Positions 25,326 to 48,438 of a stretch of DNA of 64,000 nucleotides are shown in pieces. A program made the translations under genes and the position numbers. Below the pieces are notes generated by a model that saw only the letters and a list, made by a program, of their open reading frames with translations, was not told where the DNA came from and did not search any database. This stretch comes from Favolaschia claudopus (taxonomy: Eukaryota; Basidiomycota; Agaricomycetes; Agaricales; Mycenaceae): assembly GCA_037176885.1 (NCBI GenBank), contig JAWWNJ010000047.1:806001-870000 (forward strand). The letters are read 5' to 3'. How positions within the stretch are numbered: position 1 is the stretch's first letter; each line of letters begins with the position of its first letter.

Positions 25326-28300
25326 TCAGTAGAACTCCGGCTGGAGGTTATCATACGTGGGGCAGAGCGTCTTCCAGTCGGGCTGCACGATTTGAGACTT
25401 CGGACCCGAGATGTTGTCCTTGGGAGATTCTCCGAAAACGACGGCTGGAGAAGAAGTAATGATGAGTCTCGAACGAAAGGGAGGGAGAGTGTAGGAGAAT
25501 TACCCAAACCGGCTTCCAAGTGCCAATCTGAAGGGAGAAAGTGAAGGTTAAGTCAGCGTTCTCGGTAACCAAGATGTTGTAAATACCGATGTGGCTGATG
25601 GAGAGAGGCGTAATCAGACTTTGCGAAGAAACAAATGAGAAGAAGAAACATACCAGTGGAGGAACCAGGCGCCTGGGTTGTCGGTGAAGAAGCGGAAAGT
25701 GGTGTTCCCACCGTTGATCTGATATACAAGTCAAGCTATATTCCGCATACAAGTCAAGAAAAAAGCTAGTTCACGCACGGGAGTCACGTCGCGACGAGGC
25801 GGGTTCTTGAAGTTCTTCGTGACGGCGTTGGATTCAAGGATGACATCGAAATTGTGTCCGTGCACTGAGTGACGATGGATTAACTGTCTGCAATCCTGAT
25901 ACATGGCGAAAACGCACAATGGAAGGGATGAGCTCCCGTGCCGGGAATACTGATATCGACGATACTGTTGGGGGGCAGCAAAATACTGGGAAGAAAAGGT
26001 CGGTCAGTGAGCTTGATTTGAGGAAGTTGTGGCTCAAACAAAACACGTACACTTGCTCCGAAGGCAACAAGTCCGTGGGCTGTTTCCTCTCAGATCAGAA
26101 AACAGAAAGCAGGGAATAGTCGGGAAAGCATCACCTTAGCGGCGCCACTGAGCAACTGCAACAGGACAGGGAGGGACGGGGAGAGGTAGGACTAGGAGAA
26201 ATCAATGTCGGTCAATCACTCATTGCAATGATAATTGGCTGGCAAAACGCACAATTCCGTTGATTTCAAAGAACGGCGCGGTCGGTTGAGCGATGTTCAG
26301 CGTAACAGCAAAGTCAGGCGGGCCAGATCCGAGTTTGCCGGGGCCTTCGGCGGCAATGGGCTTTATTAGACATGATCCATCAGTTCTGTGGACGCGCGAA
26401 AAGGAATGGATTTGACGCACATGCATAAGCGCATCGTCCATCTTGGTTCCGAGTTCGGGGGTATCGTGGGTGGTGGGCTCAGCGGCAGGTGCACCCTCGT
26501 AGCGGAGAATGGCAAGGGTCAGGTTGGGGTTGTCTGATTTATGAATCGTTGAGCACTACTATATTTTGAACGGAACGTGAAACAAAGGCACGCACAGTTG
26601 GGGTTGTTGGCAGGGCTTCCTCCGGTGGGGCTGTTGAATCGAGTCATATAAGTGTTCATTCACTTTTGATGCTAGTATACTCACGGCGCGCGGATCTAGC
26701 ACACACGAAATCAATTAGTTTTGCTTGATTGTGATCGTAGAGGCGAAGACGTACCCAATAGTTGTTGACAGCCTGGTTAGCGTGCAGAACGATTGAGATA
26801 CGTTGGGCTGCACAAGAAAATCAACATCATTCCAAAGTAATTGCTTATTGAATACTCACCGGCATAGACATCGGCGTTCTGGAAGGTAACGGGATCGTGC
26901 TCAACACCGTCGAGTTCGATGACGTCTACATTGTACATCGGGAATCAGGGACCTGTCTGGTTGTATGCAGAGCAAGCAGGGGACAACGAACCGAAAGTGT
27001 GGTTGTCAAATGACAGCGTCATGAATGGACGGCATGAGATCGAGAAGATACGGAAGCGGTAGCGCAGGCCCTGCTTGACGTTGATCACCGCGAAAGGGAC
27101 TATCGAGGGTTGCAGTCAGCCTTATTGCTACTCAGGGAATGAGAGGAGAGTTCGGAACATACCGAGCGGTCCGCCGTTGTACCGTCTAGGTAACAGTAAC
27201 ATTAAGTGACGCGTTCAACGGCAATCTAATACCCGGTGGTTGAACTCACCCTTTCCCGTTGATGAGGCCTGAGAAACGATTAATTAATGAGTTGACATTC
27301 GCACCCCAGAGCATGGGTAGCTATGGGAACATACCAGAGTCTTGGACGCTGGGAGAGACAATCGAGTGTCAGTTTTAATCGAGCGGTAAATGCGAGGGCG
27401 GACTTACGGGATAATACCGGTCTTGAAGAACTCGTTTTGGCCGGCGGGCGCGAGGACGTCTGGTGAGCATCGCGTTAAAAACAGGGTCTTACCGAACAAG
27501 AGGTATGGGAAAGGAGAGAGGGACGTACGGTACCATTCGCCGAGGGTGATAATGGTGCTGTCTGTCAACGGTTTTCGAGTGGTGAGGAGGAGATGATGGT
27601 TTAGGAAGGAGGTAAAGCGACTTGCCGTCGTCGACGTCGCTGGAGGGATATCATGTTATTTGCGTGAAAGACGACAAAAGGAATTAGAACGTACTAGAGG
27701 TGGGCCATAGGGTCATCCGGGTCTGGAAGCTCGGTATCAGGAACAAGCGGTTTATGTGAGCCAAATAAAACTCACCGTAGACGACGAAAGCGCCACGAAG
27801 ACCATCACCTGTGAGATACAAGCATTAAATCCATTGTATTCCTCCGTCTTTGATTGCCTGCTTGACTCACAGTACTGCGTCGAGTAGTGCGAGTGGTACC
27901 AGTAGCTAAGTTAGCCAAAAATCAATGTCTGATTTCAAGTAAGATAAAGTGAGACAACTGACTTTCCGGTTTGACCGGCAGTGTCGAACACATAGTCGAA
28001 TGTTGTCGATGGAGCAATCGGGCACTGATTCACAAACCTGCAAACAAGATTAGCGATGGGCTGGCAAGTGGTGAGGTGGAAATCAGCGTACGAAGGGCCG
28101 TCCATTCCCGATGTTCGTGCTTGGAAGAAACCATGCCAGTGCTTGAAAGATCATTCATTAAGAGGATGATGTTATTGAACGGAAGACATACGATGGAAGT
28201 GCTTCGCAGCATGTCGGGGCTGGTCAACTTGTTGTGTGTGTGGATGACGACGGAGTCGCCTTTGTTGACCTTGAAGGTCGGACCGGGGAAAGTTCCGTTT

Positions 28301-28546
28301 GCAACGACAGTGCTAGAACATCCGTCAGCGAGAGTGGAAATCATGGAAACTGATCCCCTTACTCGCGAACAAAGCCATCGGGGGCGAGCTTGGTGTTGAC
28401 GATATCCAAGTTGAAAATAACTTGAGCGCCTATGTAGGATTGTAAGCCATAGCTTTAATGCTCCAGTAAGATGCAGTAGACAAACCGAGAGCAATGGAAG
28501 GAAGCAGCGACAAAGCCGCAAGCCGGAGGGAGGAGGAGGCCAACAT
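25326..28546 (-). CDS. Laccase (multicopper oxidase)
   Basis: Secreted oxidase taking electrons from phenols and reducing O2 to water. The start is ATG at 28546 with a signal peptide (MLASSSLRLAALSLLP, then SIALGAQV); the stop is at 25326. All four copper signatures appear after splicing: L1 HWHGFFQ (about 28138), L2 WYHSHYSTQYC (about 27895), L3 HPFHLHGHNF (split by an intron, about 25850-25930) and L4 HCHIDWHLEAGL (split, about 25510-25670). These give the ten His and one Cys needed for the T1 and T2/T3 coppers. The residue four after the L4 second His region is Leu-type (HLEAGL), compatible with medium-to-high potential enzymes, an inference only. Coding is broken into many short exons by introns of about 50-60 bp, as in white-rot laccases. 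Confidence 0.95.
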
Positions 28547-28600
28547 TGTGGGTGTGCTACTACGCTGAGAGCCCTGACATTCGGGACCGTCCAAGGACTC

Positions 28601-28606
28601 TTTATA
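28601..28606 (-). promoter_or_regulatory. TATA box of the laccase gene
   Basis: TATAAA on the - strand, 55 bases before the ATG, inside TTGCTATAAAGAGTCC. Distance and sequence fit a fungal core promoter. Confidence 0.6.
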
Positions 28607-29877
28607 GCAAGCAGTGATGAAATGAATGGGAAGAAAATGTGAGGCATTTCACGCCGGACGCGTGTGTGCCTAACTCGGGCAGTACCCAATCCAGATACCG
28701 GGTTTTCGCGGGTTTCCCCAGTCGTGCGCCGTGGCGGGAGGATCGAGTGGTCGCGGAGCTTGTGAGAAGCATTTAGGCGGGCGTGGGTCGTAAGTTCACA
28801 GAAAAACCACGAAGGACGGACATGTTGAATTCCTTGAACCTTGATTCGATGTGGACAGAAGAGAAAGCCATGGGAAAGGCTGTTATGGTGACGGCATTTG
28901 ATGGAAAATTGATGGCCGATGGCGATCCGTCAGCGGTGCCGAAAAATGGTTCAAATCTTCGTTCAAATCCCACATATTCTACTCGACGACGGTGAACATC
29001 CCAGACGCAATTATCATTTTCTCTTGGCAGGTCCGGTTTCATTCAGTCGCGGAAATTATATCCCGACTCGCTGCGGTTCCGCGGAAATTCGAAGTCAGAA
29101 CCACGCCGAGGCAATTACTCTGTTGTACCTCTTCATCCAACCAAGAGCCTTTTCTGCGTAATCGACGATCAAGCGAGCTAGAAGATGCCAAAGTGGAGAG
29201 TTCTGTTTGGCTCGAGCAGTACTTCTTGGCTAAATTTACACTCACGAACTGAATGATTGTCGAGCTGGTAATAGTCACTGAAACACGCTAACATTTGGCA
29301 GTTTCATTCTTGTCGGCCGTCTAGTGCGGAGTTGAACGCATAGACCGCAGCCCCTTAGCCCTTGCGAGAACAAATAGGAGCTATTCTGGACCGCGTGTCC
29401 GCAATCGCTTGAATGTCATCAAATGTAAAGCGACGGAAAGCACCCGGAGGCAAATGTCCCCGACCCTGAGACGATTCTCAAGGGCGGTCCACGCGCTTGT
29501 TGCAACTTGCGACGGGTGCGTTTCATATGTGCAAACAGCCTAGGATCAAATTTTTGGGGGTGGCCGCGCCGTCGTGACGGCCAACGACCGCCGCAGCGAT
29601 GACCCCCTCCAAGCTGACAGACTTCAACACGCTTGATCTCGAGCCCCGATAATTGAAAGACCCAGTCATGTCGGCTTCTCAAACTGAAGACTGCAGACAG
29701 TCTTAACTCGAACCAAATTGTAACAATAAATCATTCACATTGAGGACCACAAAACCAAAGACAAGGAACAGGAACTCGTATTTCAACAAACAAAAGCGAA
29801 CCCTAATCGCAACGTCCTCCTCAACTTGCTCGCGTTAAACGCACACTCATTCTGTCCAACAACCACCACTATACCCC
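28607..29877. other. Intergenic, no gene seen
   Basis: About 1.3 kb that should carry upstream control sites of the laccase. Short open frames on both strands (for example around 29040-29280) show no codon structure or family match. Confidence 0.45.
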
Positions 29878-34776: not shown

Positions 34777-34877
34777 CTCTAGAGTACGGTAGGCGGGATG
34801 GTCGAGGTTGGTTTTGACATTTTGACATCCGAGTTCCGAGGGAGTCCGAAGTGCCGGCTGAGCCGCGGCTAAGTACG
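34777..34877 (+). repeat. Left terminal inverted repeat (and target duplication) of the kinase-carrying transposon
   Basis: Matches the reverse complement of 40809-40902. Shared blocks: GTACGGTAGGCGGGATGGTC, GAGGTTGGTTTTGAC, TTTTGACATCCGAGTTCCGA and a more diverged inner part ending CTAAGTACG. Confidence 0.92.
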
Positions 34878-35368
34878 TGATGAAACTGCCAAATCAGGCA
34901 GATGCCGAGTCAGTCGGAATCTAGAAAATTCAAGCACCACTTTGCCATGGGCATTGTAGTGCCCGTATAGATAGTATGTAGCTCTTTCTTTGAGCCTATA
35001 GGACATCTTTTGTTATGTTGAATGGTGGGGGGAGAATTGTCGGCCGTTGAATGGGGAAATAAGGTGCATCAATTAATCACTATCATCAATCTCGACCTCA
35101 ATGCGGATCGTATGCGCTACAATGACGCAAATGGATTTCGAGCGAGCTAGCTCAAAATGCAGTTGCGTCATACATTGGAAGTATGCTCAGAATATTGACA
35201 CAATTTTGTTTCCTTGTTGCTGTGTTCCTTGACTGGGAGCCAGACTGCCGGATCGATCAATCAAGTCTGGTCAGTCAGGAGGTACTAGATGACGCTCTGC
35301 TGTTAACTTAAAGAACTTTTGAGCATTGATGTCATACCATATAATTCGGTATTACAGGTAACATCTAA

Positions 35369-36939
35369 CTACAGTAGCAAAGGCAGCATGCGGCAAAATA
35401 TTGTCCACCCATCAGTCAGCTTCAACTTCGGACTCCCAATCTGTTCATACACTTCTGCTGCCTGTGTATCAAACTCGTCTGACACCCAACGATAGCACTC
35501 CTCCCTCGACTTCGGGATATTCTGTCGAAGCTGATCAATGTATTCTTGCGGTGCCTGCTCACCAAATTTAACAAGTCCGAACCGTTCTGGAAAATCACAA
35601 ATGTAATTTGGCGAGAACCCAGAAGGAAGGACTTTGTCCTTCTGTAACCGAATACGGTGATTATTCCAGTAATCAACAAAATCATCCAGACAGAGCTGAA
35701 TAATTTTCGGCCACAGCCAATTGAATAGATTACTGTAAAATGTTCGTCAAAATTTGATAGTTGAAGAGTTGGGGAAGCATACACATGAACATCATAAGCT
35801 GCATTGAAATAATTGAGGGTTCGGCCCAGCAGTAAAATTTCCTTGATGTCAAGCCCAACATAATTTGTAAAAAGCTTCCAAGATGCTTCAATGGGAATGT
35901 TGTCGGTGCTCGGCAATGCCACAAAAGCAGGATGATTTTCCAAGGAGACATCGGGCATGCATTTTTGGCTAAAATAGCGAGTCAGAACCACGTAGAACAT
36001 AAATCAGCATAGCTCTTACCGCAAAGCAAGATGCGCTGCATATAGCTCCCCCGTCTCAGACCCTCCATCAACTGTTGCCTGAACAAAGACTATAAGAAAA
36101 GGTCAGAAACAAGCCTTAGATATGTGAATGAGTGAACACATACCACCATTATCTTCGACCAAGTCAAGATAGTAATGACCGACAGTCGATGAGCATCGAG
36201 CATTAGGGACAGTCAAGAATTTGATCATTCTACTGCTTGAATGGCAGCGAGAACCGTAGATATCTATACCAACTCGCCCCATGCGCAAGGCTTTGAAATT
36301 CAATTTCTCGTGGCCGTCAAAATGAACTTCATAGTAGACTCCGGTGTCGGTAAGGTGTCCACGCTGCTTAGGGGTACGGTTACGGCCCGGATATCTAATC
36401 TCTGCTCCACCGGGATCCAAGTCGGCCATCAAACGGCGAACGGTGTCGCTGAGAAATTATCAGCTTGAAGTACACTGGAGAAGGAACAACCGCCATACCG
36501 GGGAATTTTCACTCCATGTTCGCGGGCTATCTGAGTCTGAACCGTTCCGGGACCCTTGCGAGAGGAAGCATTATCAGAAATGACTTCGCCGATGATTGTG
36601 GCTGAAATATGTTCCGGCGGTGGTTTCTTGACAGTGTCGACATTGAATTTGCGATTGAGGCCTTTCAAAGTAGTGAGACTAGTACATGCAAGTGAGCAAA
36701 GTGAATAATCAGCATGTCAAGAACTATATACACACCCAATCTTGTAGTTGAAATCCTTGACAAGATAATCCAGTCGCTGAGCAAGACTCAGACTGTTGCG
36801 AGAATATCTGTAGAGAGCTGCTTCCAGCACATCATCCGGCGGTCCTAATATTTCAACAACGTTAAGTCGGATTTAAGAATTTGGGAATACCCTCACTTGT
36901 GCCGTTGTAGTGACCGTTATTGCCAGCTGTGTTGACCAT
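35369..36939 (-). CDS. Integrase-like (rve superfamily) DDE transposase
   Basis: Probable transposase of the surrounding element. It belongs to the eukaryotic integrase-core family with an RNase H fold. Candidate catalytic triad: D in HFDGHEKLNF, D in TVDGGSETGEL, and E in IPIEASWKLFTNYVG. Other family blocks: REHGVKIPR (N-terminal helix-turn), MGRVGIDIYGSRCHSSSRMI, STVGHYYLDLVEDNGG, then DDFVDYWNNHRIRLQKDKVL and YICDFPERFGL. Six or so introns of about 50-60 bp. The likeliest start is ATG at 36939 (MVNTAGNNGHYNGT); an upstream frame at 36987-37259 could add an exon but overlaps a repeat. The stop TAG is at 35369. No damage seen in the triad. Confidence 0.82.
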
Positions 36940-37014
36940 TTGACGGTGTTCACTGAAGATTGCGGTAGACTTACAAGCTATTTATATTATTGCGCTTGGA
37001 TGAGTCGAGTCAAG

Positions 37015-37560
37015 ACAGGTTGAACCGTGGGAAATTCGCTTACATGTATTCTTGCCTCCTGTATCGACAAATGACTCGAAAATGACTCGGATTGCAGAGC
37101 ATTCACCGACCCACTGTGCTTTCCGTGTGTGTGCATGAAACTGGACTGACTCAGAAATTGTGCAAAATCAGCGAGTCGAGTCCAATCCACCTGAATATCC
37201 GTGTTTCCGAATATCCGTTTCCGGAGCGCAGTAGAAAATGAGTCAAGCTGGACTCTCATCTCCGGATTCTAATGTTGCTGATCAATCATGTTACTTCTTT
37301 TGTTCTATCCGTACAAGTTCAACCGTGGGAGCTACCTGCGGTTATCCTTTTGACCCACCTTCGTGCCCGCTCCGGAAATGACTCGAATTGCAGACTCGCA
37401 GATTTCGTGCTCACAAAAAATCAGACTGACTCAGAATTTGTTTGAACCCATGACTCGAAATGTACCCACCTCAATATCCATCCGAAGCGCAGTTGCAACG
37501 AGTAGCACGGTTCCGAGTTTTGATTTGTGATCTCTTTCACCTCCATGTTCGACTTGGCAA
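37015..37560. repeat. Degenerate tandem duplication in the divergent promoter region
   Basis: Copy A about 37015-37262, copy B about 37313-37560. Both start GTTSAACCGTGGGA, then share AATGACTCG.ATTGCAGA, ACTGACTCAGAA, and AATATCC...GAGCGCAGT. The copies have diverged. The opening motif occurs again downstream of the kinase at about 40261. Confidence 0.65.
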
Positions 37561-37577
37561 TTCACTGAGGCAGTATT

Positions 37578-37583
37578 TATAAA
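37578..37583 (+). promoter_or_regulatory. TATA box of the transposon-borne alpha-kinase
   Basis: TATAAA within AGTATTTATAAACAAAG, 54 bases before the ATG at 37632. Confidence 0.6.
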
Positions 37584-37631
37584 CAAAGAAAGCACCACCC
37601 GAAATTCAGTCACCTACCTCTACTATCTACA

Positions 37632-40019
37632 ATGGCTCAAGATGTCGACCCAACTCTTTGCACTAATCCCAACTCTCCCGGTGAATGTTGTGGCGCCTCT
37701 TTCGATCACAAGGCAACCCCTGGACTCTGTGCAGCATGCTATGTCGCTACTACGGACTCAGCGCGCGCCTTGGAGATGAAGGTATTTTTTTTATCTTTAA
37801 CTTTCCGAGAAATATAATGATCGTACTCTAGGATTGGCCCCAATGCGAGGGCTGCTCGGCCCAACTGAAGCTTCTCAAAGGGTCTCGTTGTGGTTCATGC
37901 ATTAGAAAAGGTAAGTTCGATGGTCTAGTAGATCTTGAGTTCAAATTGAACAAGCAACATTTTGACTAGATGCACAAGCCTTGCCACCAGCCACGCCTCT
38001 ACAGACGCAAGATCAAAACCTCCCGCCGAACTCCGACTCATCGGCCGACAGCCTTCAAAAGCTTCAAGCAGATGCTCGGCGTACCGCTATGTTTGCTCGC
38101 ACCCTTCAAAAAGGATCGCTCAAATCCAGCGGAGGTACTTTGTCTGCGCCGATTGGAAATGCAAAGGGTATGGCTCGGCAGATTACTGTATATCTCGTCC
38201 CTGCCACCTCCAATACTCGGACTGATGCATCGCGTATGCTCGGAAACGCCACCCGGGCCTTTCCGGAGGATACCCCGATGGAAGGTGAGTTTAATGAGTA
38301 CTATTCTGCGTTGGATTTGTGATTTTTAACTTGTTTATTTGATAGATGTCATGACGCACCTTCTTCGCCATTGGAATTTGGATTGGGAAAAGGATTCTGC
38401 AGAAAGTCTCACACCGTGCGCATTTTCATCTTTATCTTTCAGTCAAGACTTCAAGTATTAATGAGTCGCAATTACAGGGAACACATATCTCTCCGTCTCT
38501 TTGGCAATGTTGGAATTCAACCGCACAGCACTGCCGGGTCTTTGGGCAATTTCTTCAGCATTCATGATCGTATCTACGGCAACAATCCAAAGAAGATGCT
38601 TCAAGGACCTCCGACTCTCAAACTACCTTCTCCTGCCATTTACCTGGAGGGGTTGATCTTGGTCAAAGAGGTGAGTTGTTGATTGATTGGTCTTGCGCCT
38701 GAATCACAATTCATTTGCTTAGTATGAGGATCAAACCGGTGCTCGAGCCCCATACTTTGTGCACACAGAAAAGGAAATCAGGAAGCGTAAACTAAGCGCA
38801 ACCACAGGCAATGTTACAAGTGTTGTCAAACGTACTCGAAGTAAGTGTCATTCCGTCGAGCGAATGTAAAAGTATTACTAATGACTACTATTGGTAGGCC
38901 AACTCCCCAGCCATGTGTTTACGCCGCTGCGCTCGGAAATCGGGGATCTTCCTGGCTTTTCGAAGGTCCTTTTCCTTTTTGCTACTGTCTCAGTGGCGAG
39001 GGATGGTGCAGTTAATATTATCTGGCCGGATTCTACCGCCACTCCAGTGGCTTGTACTCTACAAGATACACCTCTAGGTCAAGGAAAGACGAAAAAGGTG
39101 TTCAAGGTGCGCTTTCAATTCAATTTGATTCGATTTTACTCATCGAAGGTGTAGGCCATTTACGACGGGATGCCCTGGGTCGCCAAACGCTTCTTCGACA
39201 TTGGTACTGGGGAGGAACAAGTCGAAATTCACGAAAACTCGAAGTTCCTCATTCAAGAAATCACTCGCTTGGCAAAATCCGGGTATTATTTAGAACATTT
39301 CGTTGCTGAAGCGAAGCAGAGGGGAGTTAGTATCGATGAAAGTGAGCACTACCTTCTAATTATACGCTAACTCAGACTGATTTTCTTCAGCAATCTCCGT
39401 GACTGATTTCAAACTTGGAATTGAGGTGGTACAAGACGGTGCCTCGCCTTCTCTTGCATCAGGAGTTTCACTCGATCGGTACCAAGATGCGAACACCAAC
39501 TCCAACTCCAAATTGCTCTGGCTCTTTGAGCCTCGTCGATCCGCTCGTGTTGACCACTGGAGTGGAACCAATGACTATCCAGCTTGGCATCACAAGAAAC
39601 TCGGCAGCACTTTGAACGCATTTACTCACTATGTATATCACCTCACCCAGGAATCCATAGTTCTTGCTGATCTTCAAAGTGTGTTTGATTCTCTCCTCCA
39701 TGTTGAGATTTATCCTAATAAATGTATCCCTTGTAGCTTCAACAGCTGTCAACGAACATGGAGACGGACTCAATGTCTTATTCGACATGATGACTCACAC
39801 AAGCAATGGGTGCGTACTACTTGAGCAATCTTTTTCTGCAATGCCCTCAGAATTTACAGTGCCAGCGGGGTCGGTGATCATGGCCAGGAAGGCATTGATA
39901 CCTTTGTTCAGAGCCACGAGTGCGTTGACCGGTGTGATGGACTTGGGCTCAGTAAGGAAGGATTTACAAAGGCTTTGAAGGAGTCGGGTGAATCTGACGA
40001 AGAAGAAGAAGATCAGTAG
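37632..40019 (+). CDS. Alpha-type protein kinase with N-terminal Cys-rich (zinc-ribbon-like) module
   Basis: Predicted Ser/Thr protein kinase of the atypical alpha-kinase (MHCK/eEF2K) family. Exons begin 37632-37781, 37832-37910, 37970-38284 and 38346-38415, and continue to stop TAG at 40019. N-terminus: Cys pairs (GLCAACY, CEGC, CGSCIRK) suggest a zinc-binding module. The kinase domain shows MPWVAKRFFDIG (ATP-binding Lys), KFLIQEITRLAKSGYYLEHF, LWLFEPRRS, DHWSGTNDYPAWHHKKLG, FTHYVYHLTQESIVLADLQ (Asp of the ADLQ loop), VLFDMMTHTSNG and a C-terminal zinc-type HECVDRCDGLGL. The tail is acidic. The gene lies wholly inside a DNA transposon, head-to-head with its integrase, which makes it cargo. 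All active-site blocks appear intact. Confidence 0.88.
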
Positions 40020-40808
40020 TATTATTTACTTACTATTTGAAATCCCTCGGAGCGTAGACCAGACTGCAATTGCTTATATTGTCTTGTTCTTCCTGATTTG
40101 ATTCTTTCGGAGCAGAAACTAAGACAATTGCATTGTGGATTTGATTAAATTGATCATGATTCTCTGCCCAAGACTAGAGTAGAGGTATTATAGTCATGCT
40201 ACTTGTCCAGAATCTCCCTTTTGCATCTTTACGCTCCGAGATTGTACTGGTCGTTGACAAGTTGAACCGTGGGAATGCTTGTTGATCGCATCAATGCAGC
40301 TCGAAAAAATTCAACCTCGACGATTTCTAGGTAAGCAGAGATACAGAATCAATAAATCTAGTTACTATTGAATAGTAGTAGCTCAAATTAGCTCTATATT
40401 AGCTCATTTTAACTTTGCGTGGCGCGGAAACCGAACATTTTGGGGGCAGATCTAATGTTTTTTCTTAGGCACCTAATAGTAGAGGAATAGAGGCTTAGAG
40501 CTCAAACAGTAATTTTTCCTCGATCATCAGTAGTACATAGATTACTGTGTTGGATTTCCGGACCATGTTTGTGCATAGAATTGAGGCGTAATAACCCCAA
40601 CTTTGAGGCGGCCGCATTACACAGCCACACATCTCACAATGTCCTCTCTTTCGCACGGGGGTTGCCTCAGAATACTCTACAATTTCGTTTCCATTAAGAT
40701 AAGCTTCATTAGCTTTCACTTGTACCTCAACTAGGTATGGGAACGCGCAATAGCCTGAGTATCGACTCAGCACAGTCTTCCTAATTAGGCAGTTACATCA
40801 CGTACCGT
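40020..40808. other. Right subterminal region of the kinase-carrying transposon, no gene seen
   Basis: AT-rich sequence with a third GTTGAACCGTGGGA motif at about 40261 and a small TAGCTC/ATTAGCTC repeat (about 40378-40412). A 92-codon - strand frame (40495-40773) has a CEMCGCVM motif but no codon support I trust. Confidence 0.5.
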
Positions 40809-40902
40809 CGTACTTAGCTGCCGCGGCACTCGGACTTTTTCGGAACTCGGATGTCAAAACGTCAAAACCAACCTCGACCATCCCGCCTACCGTACTCTAG
40901 AG
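40809..40902 (-). repeat. Right terminal inverted repeat (and target duplication) of the kinase-carrying transposon
   Basis: Reverse complement of 34777-34877; the flanking CTCTAGAG is 40895-40902. Confidence 0.92.
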
Positions 40903-41367
40903 TGAAAACTTTTTTTTTGGTTTTCTGGTCAGGTTTCAGGCAGCGGTACTTTTCGAATCCCGAAGCAACTAACTTACTTACACGTACGCACTACGTACCT
41001 GTCCTCGCAACCGAGCAAGGTACATAACTCAAGTGTCAACCTGCTCTTTTGAGCCCAAACTCATGCCCCATCCCCTCAAACTTGGCATGTAGTCCGGTTT
41101 CCTCTGTACGACGGACTTTTCGCGGCGCTTGGGGCCTTCCGTCGACTGAGGCCCCAAATCCCGCGAAGACTCCGTCGTGCAGCTCGGGATTCTGACGCGG
41201 TCATACAAAGGCCGGTGGGGTATTTGCTGTCCCCTTCTTTCCTCTTTTTGATTTCGGTGCCACCACAAGTTGATAATTGAGGCATGCGAAAAAAAAAATC
41301 CCACTGATCTCCTCAAGTAACGGCGAACCCACACAAATTAAGCAAAAACTCTTCTGAAACAGTGTCC

Positions 41368-44991: not shown

Positions 44992-46268
44992 ATGAAGGGA
45001 TCCGTTGCTTTTGCCTCGCTCGTCGCAGCCTCCGTCGTCTCGGCGCGTACCTTCACCGTCACGAACAGCTGCGGTTACACTGTTTGGTGAGTTTCTCACT
45101 CTATCCTCCAACATAGACTTCATAAACTAAATGAATTCTTCCTACTAGGCCTGCGGTACCTATCGATCTTCCCCTCGATTCTCACTCTCAAATTTGTTGT
45201 AGATCTTCACTGACCTGAACGTCGGAAGCGCCATCCCCGATCAACCGACTGGGTGCGCATTCTCTTCGCTACTATTCAATTCTATTTCAACGCCAGCATT
45301 GATTTTTTTTTCTCAGCTGGGAAGCCCCCGCCGGCTCAAGCGTTTCCTTCTCGGTTCCCGATAATTGGACAGCGGGCCGCATTTGGCCCCGTACCCAATG
45401 CGACTTCTCGTCGAACCCTGGACCCAACTCGTGTGTCACTGGTGGCTGCAATGGTGGACTGTACGTTTATCTCCTTTCCATTCTGCTGCGCTCAAACTTA
45501 TCACTGATAATGAACAGTGAATGCGATGCACACACCGGCACTGTATGTCGTTTACATCTTTTCTTGATATTTTCTTTGGCAATGCTGACATATCTCAAGG
45601 GCGTTCCTCCCGCCACCGTAGCAGAGTTCACTCTGTCCGGCGGAGGAACAACTGACAACTATGATGGTAAGCACCCTTCCCTCATTTTCGGATATTCTTA
45701 TCCTCTTAAATATATTGATTTTCCTGTCTTTCCTTCTAGTGTCCCTTGTCGATGGGTTCAATGTCCCTATTACTGTCACCAACACGGTCGGCTGCGATAT
45801 TCCTTCCTGCCCCACCGACCTCAACCCGACCTGCCCCTCCGAGCTCTCCGTCGCCGACCCGAGCGGCAAAATTGCTGGCTGCTACAGCTCATGCAAGGCT
45901 AACCTGGATGGAAACCCTGGTGGGTATTCATTTTCTATTCCGACGCGTACAACTCACATGCGTTTAATTCGTGCAGCTAACTCTCCGAATTGCTGCTCCG
46001 GCGACTTCGACGTCCCAGCGACCTGCCCCAGCTCGGGCGTCGCGTTCTACGACGCAAGTTTAAATTCCCGTTTTAATATTTATTCCCCCCGTCCCCCGTC
46101 CCACACCACAGACCCCCGTTAACATTATATTAACTCTTCTTTGTTTTGCAGTTCTTCAAGAAAGCCTGCCCCAACTCCTACGCATACCCCTACGACGAAT
46201 CCAGCGGCACGGCTCTCTGGTACTGCGACTCGAGCAAGAATGCCGATTTCACTATCACTTTTTGCTGA
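44992..46268 (+). CDS. Thaumatin-like protein, copy 2
   Basis: Complete secreted TLP. The signal peptide MKGSVAFASLVAASVVSAR leads into TFTVTNSCGYTVW. Spliced blocks: IFTDLNVGSAIPDQPTGWEA, VSFSVPDNWTAGRIWPRTQC, SSNPGPNSCVTGGCNGGLEC, VPPATVAEFTLSGGG, then VPITVTNTVGCDIPSC, DLNPTCPSELSVADPSGK, SPNCCSGDFDVPATCPSSGV, FFKKACPNSYAYPYDESSG and the final ...DFTITFC. The REDDD-type acidic cleft cannot be fully judged by eye. About seven introns, placed as in copy 1. The copies point away from each other, so the pair arose by an inverted duplication. Confidence 0.9.
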
Positions 46269-46812
46269 TGAATCCTGGTCGATGATTAGTACTCATGAAG
46301 TCCAATACTAAAGAGCGTACTCGCGCTATACCCGTTGCTGATGTACATACATACCACGAATTGTAATATTGCATATGTGACGAATACCATCATACATCCA
46401 CACAAAATGAACGTCTTATTCTTTATTGTGCCGAGTTGCTTTCCAATCCAGGTCAGCTCTCTTCCCCTCCTCCTCGGTCCGGAGTTTTCTGACGAAACTC
46501 TGAGAGATTTCTCTCTTTTGATTGTTTCTTGTTTCGGATTTCGAGTTTCCCTTGTTTTCTCTTGTCGGTAAGGTCTTCTATTCGAACACAAATCAAACAG
46601 CTGAGTACCGTAAATATCCCGACAGCTTCGCACGGCCTCGACTTGGAGCGGTTTAAGATGGTGGCTTGGAGGCTCCTAAATGTCCGTGAAATGACATGCT
46701 CTGCCTGTATCAGTGCATTCACGCGTTTTTGCCTTAAGGATTGCTGTACCGGCCCGAAGCTGGTGCCGGTACAAATGCCGCGATAATCATCAGCACTTGC
46801 TCTCCGACCACG

Positions 46813-48438
46813 ATGACCACTCTATGGTGTTTGCCTGTTCGCCTGCCGAAACGACTCCCTTCGTTCAAGACAGCGCAGCCTCGCGACGACCTTCCCTTCG
46901 AACTTTGGCTCACAATCTTTCACTTTCTCGACGTCCTCGCGTTGGGGGCCGTCTGTCGAGTGAGTCGCGCATTTAACATCTGCGCGACGCCGCTCTACCT
47001 TCAGCGCCTTGGAATGGCCCGGGCGGATCTTAACTCCGGAGCATTCATCCTTCCGCCGGATACTGGGGTTTTCCCTGCGCTCCGGACAGCCTGCTCTCTT
47101 CCTCCCGCCCGCAGGCTAGCTTGCGATATTTCTGGGTCAACGAAGTTCCAAATAATGCACTATCTACGAATCTTCATTTCCAAGCAAACCCATCTCGAGG
47201 ACGTTGACCTGAGATTACCCTGGAAGGACGACTTCACTGAGGGCTGGAAGGAGGGGAAGAAGAATCTTCCACGACAAGTCGTGCAGAAGGAGGTTTGTCG
47301 CCTTCTCAACAGCATTATGCCACGGGGCAAAACTGTACTCATTGTCCCCGATCGAGTGATCCTCAACAGCTCTACGCGAAAGCAGGCTCCTTCGTGGCGC
47401 TTGATTCGTCGGATCACTGCACCACCTCGTGGAATTCGAGCCAAGGTTCGCAGCGCAACCGCTGTCACCAAGCGGCAGCCTACGACGATGGATCTCATTC
47501 TGCGCACCAGCAGTTGCGACCCAGATGGAATCACCACGCGCTCCGATTCGTATGCCCTCGACGCACTGTTCACGTTGAACGTCAGATACGCTCCAGCGCA
47601 CAGCCCCGGGGATTGGTCAATAGCAGTGTTCGATAGCAGAAACATAAAGTGTCTTGACTTGACATCCACACTGCCTGTCCTGGACTGGCACAAAGTTTTG
47701 CCACATTTGCATCTCCCTGATCTAGAAGAGCTGTCGATGGGGAAGGCGCCAGCGTACAGTGCTTCGGAACTACATGACATCGGAGCAGACACATTGGACG
47801 CATTTTTAATTCGACACCGAGGCATCGAGCGCTTGGAATATTATCCCCAGCCCTCTCATCGATCCGATCCCCTTCATTCGGAATTCTGTTTTGCTTTCCT
47901 TGACCGTTTAACGCACCTCACGATCACGCCCGCACATTTCATCCGATTACACGTTGCTCCATACACACTCCCCGCACTCACAAATCTTATCCTGTTTTCG
48001 CCGACATCAATCGCTACGATTGATGCGGCGGATGAATTTCTTCTCGTTCTTAACCTACTCGCGTTGACGAACAAGGATGGCAACGGCCAGGACGATGGTA
48101 TATGTCTCCGCTTCCCCGGCTCCTGGCTCTCTCCCCCACCACCCGATCTCTCGATCGAGTGCATCTCATCCGTCATCATCGCGGGGGATTTTATTCTGGA
48201 TGTTGACGATTTCGTTGGATTTCTCGCACCGTTCGAGCCAGGATTGAAGATGCTGGAGGTGCAGCCCGCGGCGAAGCGGACGTTTCAGCATATTGAATTC
48301 GTGGATAAGTTGCGCGGGAGGGTGCGGTGGTTGGATGGAATCACTTGTTTGAGGACTGAGTATGTGAGAGGCGATGTTAAAGGATTCGCTGAGGGAAAGG
48401 CGCCGGAGAAGGCTGATGTCAAATACGATGACGAATAA
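46813..48438 (+). CDS. F-box protein
   Basis: Single-exon gene of 541 codons; unlike its neighbours it has no intron. An F-box lies near the N-terminus (DDLPFELWLTIFHFLDVLAL, then GAVCRVSRAFN), the part that binds Skp1 in SCF ubiquitin ligases. The rest shows loose Leu-rich, strand-helix pattern (HLEDVDLRLPW, IKCLDLTSTLPVLDWHKVL, LHLPDLEELSMG) as in LRR-like substrate-binding regions of fungal F-box proteins. ATG 46813 is chosen because the frame upstream has no ATG. The substrate is unknown; such genes are numerous in Agaricomycetes. Confidence 0.82.
   Translation: MTTLWCLPVRLPKRLPSFKTAQPRDDLPFELWLTIFHFLDVLALGAVCRVSRAFNICATPLYLQRLGMARADLNSGAFILPPDTGVFPALRTACSLPPARRLACDISGSTKFQIMHYLRIFISKQTHLEDVDLRLPWKDDFTEGWKEGKKNLPRQVVQKEVCRLLNSIMPRGKTVLIVPDRVILNSSTRKQAPSWRLIRRITAPPRGIRAKVRSATAVTKRQPTTMDLILRTSSCDPDGITTRSDSYALDALFTLNVRYAPAHSPGDWSIAVFDSRNIKCLDLTSTLPVLDWHKVLPHLHLPDLEELSMGKAPAYSASELHDIGADTLDAFLIRHRGIERLEYYPQPSHRSDPLHSEFCFAFLDRLTHLTITPAHFIRLHVAPYTLPALTNLILFSPTSIATIDAADEFLLVLNLLALTNKDGNGQDDGICLRFPGSWLSPPPPDLSIECISSVIIAGDFILDVDDFVGFLAPFEPGLKMLEVQPAAKRTFQHIEFVDKLRGRVRWLDGITCLRTEYVRGDVKGFAEGKAPEKADVKYDDE

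Follow-up and report, generated by a model that had tools for sequence, protein, structure and literature searches.

A 6.1-kb DNA transposon occupies positions 34785-40894 of the window (the whole 64,000-nucleotide stretch of Favolaschia claudopus DNA analysed here), and between its inverted repeats, TACGG...CCGTA, lie two divergently oriented genes, one for a DDE integrase and one for an alpha-kinase. The kinase gene is maintained by purifying selection. We think it likely that the element is a transposon of the IS3EU kind furnished with a two-gene kit, integrase and alpha-kinase, in which the kinase serves the element. The window belongs to contig C47 of a 264.6-Mb assembly, and other contigs are cited in the same form.

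The limits of the element can be read directly from the DNA: it starts at 34785 with TACGGTAGGCGGGATGG and ends with the complement at 40894, and CTCTAGAG abuts it on both sides as an 8-bp target-site duplication, at 34777-34784 on the left and, matching it, at 40895-40902 on the right, related empty sites having a single copy (CTCCAGAG at C125). Repeat alignment places the left terminal inverted repeat, beginning TACGGTAGGCGGGATGGTCGAGGTT, at 34785-34877 (plus strand) and the right one, ending CCTCGACCATCCCGCCTACCGTA, at 40809-40894 (minus strand). The arms 34777-34849 and 40830-40902 show 95% complementarity across 73 nt, and once gaps are allowed the repeats extend to about 93 and 86 nt, with 86% identity. 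The first 25 bp of the left repeat are shared by the window element and those on C70 and C212, representing subfamilies A, B and C respectively. On the integrase side there is also a subterminal motif, CAAGCACCACTTTGCCAT (34931-34948, plus strand), found with 0-2 mismatches at the same end of the window, C70 and C212 elements and of an element on C50 that is deeply diverged and is termed lineage D here, and identical in window and lineage D; its last 17 bases have 64 exact copies in the genome, against none for the reversed control. Some copies of the motif form close inverted pairs (C27, C38, C86, C219) and resemble short non-autonomous derivatives. Beyond the element, about 200 bp past the right end, an inverted repeat is seen at 41104-41182 (34 nt, 82% complementary, with a loop of 11 nt), and pieces of host-type genes lie within about 7 kb: multicopper oxidase (28033-28929), thaumatin family (45303-45899) and F-box protein (46738-48435).

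The integrase gene (35369-36939, minus strand) has seven exons (36939-36897, 36844-36736, 36678-36499, 36448-36144, 36089-36020, 35968-35783 and 35732-35372) and a stop codon at 35371-35369. Its spliced reading, free of internal stops, is 100% identical over 418 amino acids to a protein predicted by NCBI for F. claudopus. Among Pfam profiles PF24764 scores above its cut-off of 26, with 30.1 bits (E 4.7e-7), while matches to the rve_2, HTH_21 and IS3-transposase profiles lie below threshold. Among 53 aligned relatives of the integrase the positions D155 and D220 never vary, and conservation at E263 is 90% or more; these three are likely to be the catalytic residues. The predicted structure (pLDDT 88) gives 387 matches in the PDB, 44 of them with E of 0.001 or less, with Mu transposase and TnsB at the top and retroviral integrases next; the best E is 6.8e-7, yet TM-scores are low, at 0.15-0.35 of the query. 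Relatives with 40-55% identity are present in other Agaricomycetes.

The kinase gene (37632-40019, plus strand) has 11 exons, coding from 37632 to 40016 for 613 amino acids and then closed by TAG. The protein comprises a Cys-rich N-terminus with two Cys clusters (about residues 10-75), a middle region, and at residues 369-586 a domain matching the Pfam alpha-kinase family PF02816 (E 1.7e-24; 87.4 bits, cut-off 21.3). This domain includes the stretches GQGKTKKVFK, WVAK, DLQ and HECVDRC, and the columns of K397, D551 and Q553 are invariant among 29 aligned kinases. We take the conserved Lys, Asp-X-Gln and zinc-binding His/Cys to be the functional residues of the alpha-kinase family, Lys, Asp and Gln presumably being catalytic. 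By profile and motifs the predicted protein is an alpha-kinase. Its structure model is of low confidence (pLDDT 46) and yields no fold assignment for the N-terminus, and the single PDB match with E below 0.001 is an Entamoeba alpha-kinase, further alpha-kinases appearing beyond that limit; when the PDB was searched by sequence, with a Mycena relative as query, no match emerged, nor did PADLOC give any. In two protein searches that scored the candidates sharing most words, the named matches were all from Mycena or Favolaschia, together with one metagenome protein. In annotations the kinases of such elements go by the ordinary label of "kinase-like" proteins.

Between the two genes is a shared region of 692 bp (36940-37631) that would act as a divergent promoter. 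Examined by ORF and family scans, it gives no sign of a TET/JBP gene: its longest ORF is of 90 amino acids and no family exceeds its cut-off. Direct reading shows a TATA-like sequence, TATTTATAAAC, at 37574-37584 (plus strand), 48-58 bp upstream of the kinase ATG. The earlier note on this DNA, which described two divergent intact genes and gave the kinase a Cys-rich N-terminus and a TATA box, is borne out on each of these points. A 14-mer, GTTGAACCGTGGGA, is present three times on the plus strand of the element, at 37019-37032, with one mismatch at 37317-37330, and at 40261-40274, and occurs with at most one mismatch in all eight elements scanned. We considered it as an element-specific control site or hallmark and dropped the idea: the genome holds 218 occurrences, against 3 for the reversed control, and near one of them, on C51, neither integrase nor kinase was found. 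It may be a promoter element of the host, put to use by the transposon.

Search of the assembly with the terminal repeats yielded at least 43 matches to the left repeat from 40 of the 81 candidates scored. Target duplications of 6-8 bp flank 11 of the 15 end pairs compared: 8 bp in the window copy and C110; 7 bp in C56, C26, C70, C6, C61, C212, C113 and a 1.6-kb copy on C50; and 6 bp (CGCAGT) in lineage D. No duplication was seen at the four other pairs, namely C18 (rearranged), C75 (left end rearranged) and the pairs on C354 and C116, whose ends are not TACGG. Both genes, whole or partial, lie within repeats and duplications in ten elements (window, C110, C56, C26, C70, C6, C61, C212, C113 and lineage D), C61 and C113 being examples of copies that lack parts of one gene. 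The 1.6-kb C50 copy is internally deleted and has no detectable kinase, and has kept both ends as well as its 7-bp duplication. Stop codons interrupt the kinase copies on C56 (one), C212 (one) and C148 (two). Derivatives of other kinds are also present: a rearranged copy at C18:1164469-1172069 carries the 5' part of the integrase twice, in opposite orientations, and is without target duplication; an integrase piece directly abuts a kinase piece, as in internally deleted derivatives, on C253, C210, C135, C208, C75, C98, C59, C3, C295 and at 809 kb on C18; and at C116:613268-614590 a predicted protein, P0153, fuses a kinase fragment to a transposase-like N-terminal part (named "Transposase" in its source, with a precomputed PF27041 assignment). 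P0153 had no match in our own Pfam scan; it is probably a transposon inserted into a kinase copy and joined to it by gene prediction.

Sites related to the insertion points that lack the element were found for both insertions searched with joined flanks. For the window insertion, C125 (85%) and two places on C46 (80% and 70%) align with the flanks and show no 6-kb break; for the C26 element C29 (92%) and C268 (93%) align in this way. These are related element-free sites whose allelic status is unproven. The view that a single transposon carries the two genes between its inverted repeats had been put forward from the window alone and is upheld by copies elsewhere in the assembly that have the same gene pair and flanking duplications.

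The two genes are also linked when sought independently of the ends. DNA searches for each gene gave 45 kinase rows (all 39 candidates scored) and at least 49 integrase rows (40 of 44 candidates scored), which merged into 34 kinase loci and at least 36 integrase loci. An integrase match lies within 6 kb of 25 of the 34 kinase loci, where about 0.002 per locus is expected, and chance pairing was rejected on these figures; the 34 loci are not fully independent, as some contigs look duplicated (C295/C3, C253/C210). At every one of the 25 linked loci at least one integrase match is in the divergent arrangement, additional integrase pieces lying in other positions on C50 and C187. Seven of the nine kinase loci without an integrase match within 6 kb are short or fragmented; the two others are a 1.7-kb piece belonging to the C26 element, whose integrase is about 20 kb away, and a 1.9-kb piece on C20.

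A degenerate pattern of the integrase motif DGHEKLN detects 19 sites in the genome, against none for the reversed control, and one of these, C50:1446225, marks lineage D, which the DNA searches had not shown. Its integrase pieces are 33-54% identical to the window integrase, and its divergently placed alpha-kinase, with a Cys-rich start and an HECV..C end, is 31-44% identical to the query P0123 in pieces of at least 28 amino acids. Its termini are TACGGTTGGCGGGAAGG repeats, flanked by the CGCAGT duplication. The element as a whole (C50:1444290-1454993) is IS3EU-like and about 10.7 kb long; inverted repeats in its interior point to nested insertions. The divergent layout of predicted integrase and alpha-kinase genes is conserved in this deeply diverged lineage of the same genome.

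Comparison of the window element with its diverged copy on C110 reveals 13 nonsynonymous and 56 synonymous differences in the kinase (two codons being gapped in C110) and 11 and 49 in the integrase, corresponding to dN/dS of 0.064 and 0.058. Against C56, where changes are few, the ratios are 0.089 for the kinase (which has one stop in C56) and 0.145 for the integrase, and against C26 the integrase ratio is 0.115. Because its ratio against C110 is 0.064, the kinase is under purifying selection and is not idle cargo. In the comparisons with subfamilies B and C the kinase has a dN of 0.18-0.24 and the integrase one of 0.11-0.15, so that the kinase protein changes faster over longer times; dS at this distance is 1.6 to 3.6 or past the correction limit, and quantitative ratios are confined to C56, C26 and C110.

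Whether kinase and integrase form co-evolving clades, a question raised in the earlier note, is answered in part. In both gene trees two F. claudopus pairs group together and are joined by the same pairs from Mycena polygramma and Mycena sp. CBHHK (support 98/97 for integrases, 99/98 for kinases), an unpaired M. polygramma kinase falling outside this shared clade; the remainder of the tree is poorly resolved. The Favolaschia subfamilies are not strictly congruent, integrases weakly joining B with C (82/70) and kinases joining A with C (100/97). For statistical comparison, 19 of 42 kinases shared a contig, judged by its length and with adjacency not being required, with one of 40 integrases chosen among 120 listed of 183, four of which (P0056, P0059, P0065, P0100) were picked by eye for matching; one integrase matched two kinases, of which one was used, leaving 18 pairs. 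The Mantel correlation of these pairs is 0.63, with 140 of 9999 shuffles as high; with the M. pura and M. capillaripes pairs dropped for their long branches the 16 remaining give 0.505 (28 of 9999 shuffles), and the true pairing ranks fourth among 32 within-species swaps. One well-supported shared clade, with statistics that are not decisive, is suggestive of co-evolution.

Family knowledge, the duplications and the counterpart sites suggest how such an element would move: the integrase would bind the repeats, excise the element and paste it at cuts staggered by 7-8 bp. With less certainty we propose for the kinase an accessory function on behalf of the element that encodes it. The N-terminus, which is rich in Cys and probably binds zinc, might bring the protein to partners on DNA or chromatin, where it would phosphorylate the integrase complex or a host repair or silencing protein and so allow the element to move or to stay expressed. 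An accessory role in transposition or in escape from host control appears the most likely for this predicted kinase. Three observations make service to the element its most likely role: selection acts on the kinase, its gene moves together with that of the integrase, and in sister elements there is in addition a TET enzyme believed to oppose silencing.

Other readings differ greatly in how well they fit. The least tenable is that two solo elements in inverted orientation happen to flank unrelated genes: solo ends and nested fragments of the family do occur (for example on C116, C354 and C3), but it is refuted by duplications that match, by further copies with this pair of genes and by counterpart sites that run on uninterrupted. 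Nor do we give much credence to the idea that the kinase gene was captured from a host and now rides along as neutral cargo. Alpha-kinases occur outside transposons in other eukaryotes, the 1.6-kb C50 copy has kept its ends and duplication with no detectable kinase, and across subfamilies it is the kinase that evolves more quickly of the two proteins. Against this, the kinase is almost as constrained as the integrase in the C110 comparison, a selection test that largely refutes neutrality, and the divergent layout recurs both in lineage D and in TET-carrying IS3EU elements of other fungi, as far as the available text of that report describes them (PMC12730594). The earlier note's option of a captured host gene is, as a fresh neutral capture, not supported. 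Selection might instead operate at the level of the fungus, to which the kinase would be beneficial. Purifying selection alone cannot separate benefit to the host from benefit to the element, alpha-kinases are expanded in rusts according to the consulted table of PMC4469406, and the search within 6 kb of the kinase piece on C20, 1.9 kb long, gave no integrase match; this is nevertheless unlikely, as an integrase match accompanies 25 of the 34 kinase loci and the intact integrase-free loci that should persist are represented by few candidates.

A stronger contender is that the kinase controls the dose or timing of the element's own integrase rather than host defence. One short intergenic region is common to both genes, which are divergent wherever linked, and both are similarly constrained against C110; set against these, the sister elements that add TET suggest the collection of anti-silencing tools, in line with the TET proposal in the available part of Kojima's paper (PMC12730594). 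Control of the integrase is a tenable minority reading, and by analogy with those elements we judge action on host control slightly more likely. Broader still, and put forward tentatively though with a little more conviction, is the idea that a fungal IS3EU group has had the alpha-kinase among its founding components, as basic to it as the transposase, and that the rust expansions would be largely transposon genes arming the element against silencing or repair checkpoints.

The numbers of alpha-kinases bear on a further proposal in the earlier note, that they are expanded in Agaricomycetes and that mobility is the cause. This is supported only in part: in Table 3 of PMC4469406, the part of that paper used here, the high expansions are those of two rusts, with 79 and 39 genes, against 5 on average in seven Agaricomycetes. 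In the genome studied here, 25 of the 34 kinase loci are linked to the transposon. Since such kinases are annotated as ordinary "kinase-like" proteins, some of the genes counted in published expansions of the family may belong to a mobile element. If a transposon encodes a kinase that is kept by selection, some transposons would intervene in host or transposase signalling through phosphorylation, an idea made testable by a defined two-gene unit and its natural derivatives without the kinase.

Among the known systems that come close are the TBE transposons, whose kinase we assume to be of a different family from the window alpha-kinase. These are elements of the Tc1/mariner superfamily in a ciliate, Oxytricha, and have three ORFs, as described in the accessible text (PMC4724952). 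Kyakuja, Dileera and Zisupton elements with TET/JBP are, like ours, fungal transposons that carry an enzyme believed to work against control by the host, but both the transposase and the accessory enzyme are different in the account available (PMC12730594). Styx of Zymoseptoria has an IS3EU-related DDE transposase, a length of 7.9 kb and a proposed two-protein ancestor; it differs in its 6-bp duplications and four coding sequences, and the accessible portion of its description mentions no alpha-kinase (PMC10853768).

The IS3EU families themselves are also among the closest systems. The pairing of transposase and alpha-kinase is already in print: in the sections of Kojima 2025 (PMC12730594) available to us two sentences note it, every TET-carrying IS3EU family having a TET/JBP gene between oppositely oriented transposase and alpha-kinase, and the TET gene is proposed to act on host control; beyond this paper, our literature search on alpha-kinases in transposons or IS3EU, made on partial texts, found none that discusses it. 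What is added here is a selection test, empty sites, deep conservation, a variant duplication length and a TET-less form. IS3EU elements are described, in the relevant extract of a 2023 paper (PMC10045372), as having TA..TA termini and usually 6-bp duplications, and for rust families TAYGG..CCRTA ends, repeats of more than 30 bp and 6-bp duplications are given, a TET-carrying family being known also from Tuber indicum (PMC12730594, in the same sections). The window element, its relatives and lineage D end in TACGG..CCGTA; the window repeats, at about 93 and 86 nt, exceed 30 bp; and the kinase gene is oriented opposite to the transposase, as in the rust and Tuber families. A DDE transposase of the IS3/IS481 type lacking the HHCC motif is a further character of the superfamily; here the profile results for the integrase comprise PF24764 above its cut-off and rve_2, HTH_21 and the IS3 transposase below theirs. 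The duplications depart from the usual length, being of 8 bp in the window and C110 and of 7 bp in eight relatives, and because of this the window's group, compared with IS3EU by published description, is to be classed as a variant, non-canonical IS3EU. Relative to the rust and Tuber elements as they appear in those sections (PMC12730594), the window element is distinguished by having no TET/JBP gene between its two genes, by duplications of 7-8 bp rather than 6, and by its host, one of the Mycenaceae, whose genome also holds, in lineage D, an element with the 6-bp duplication.
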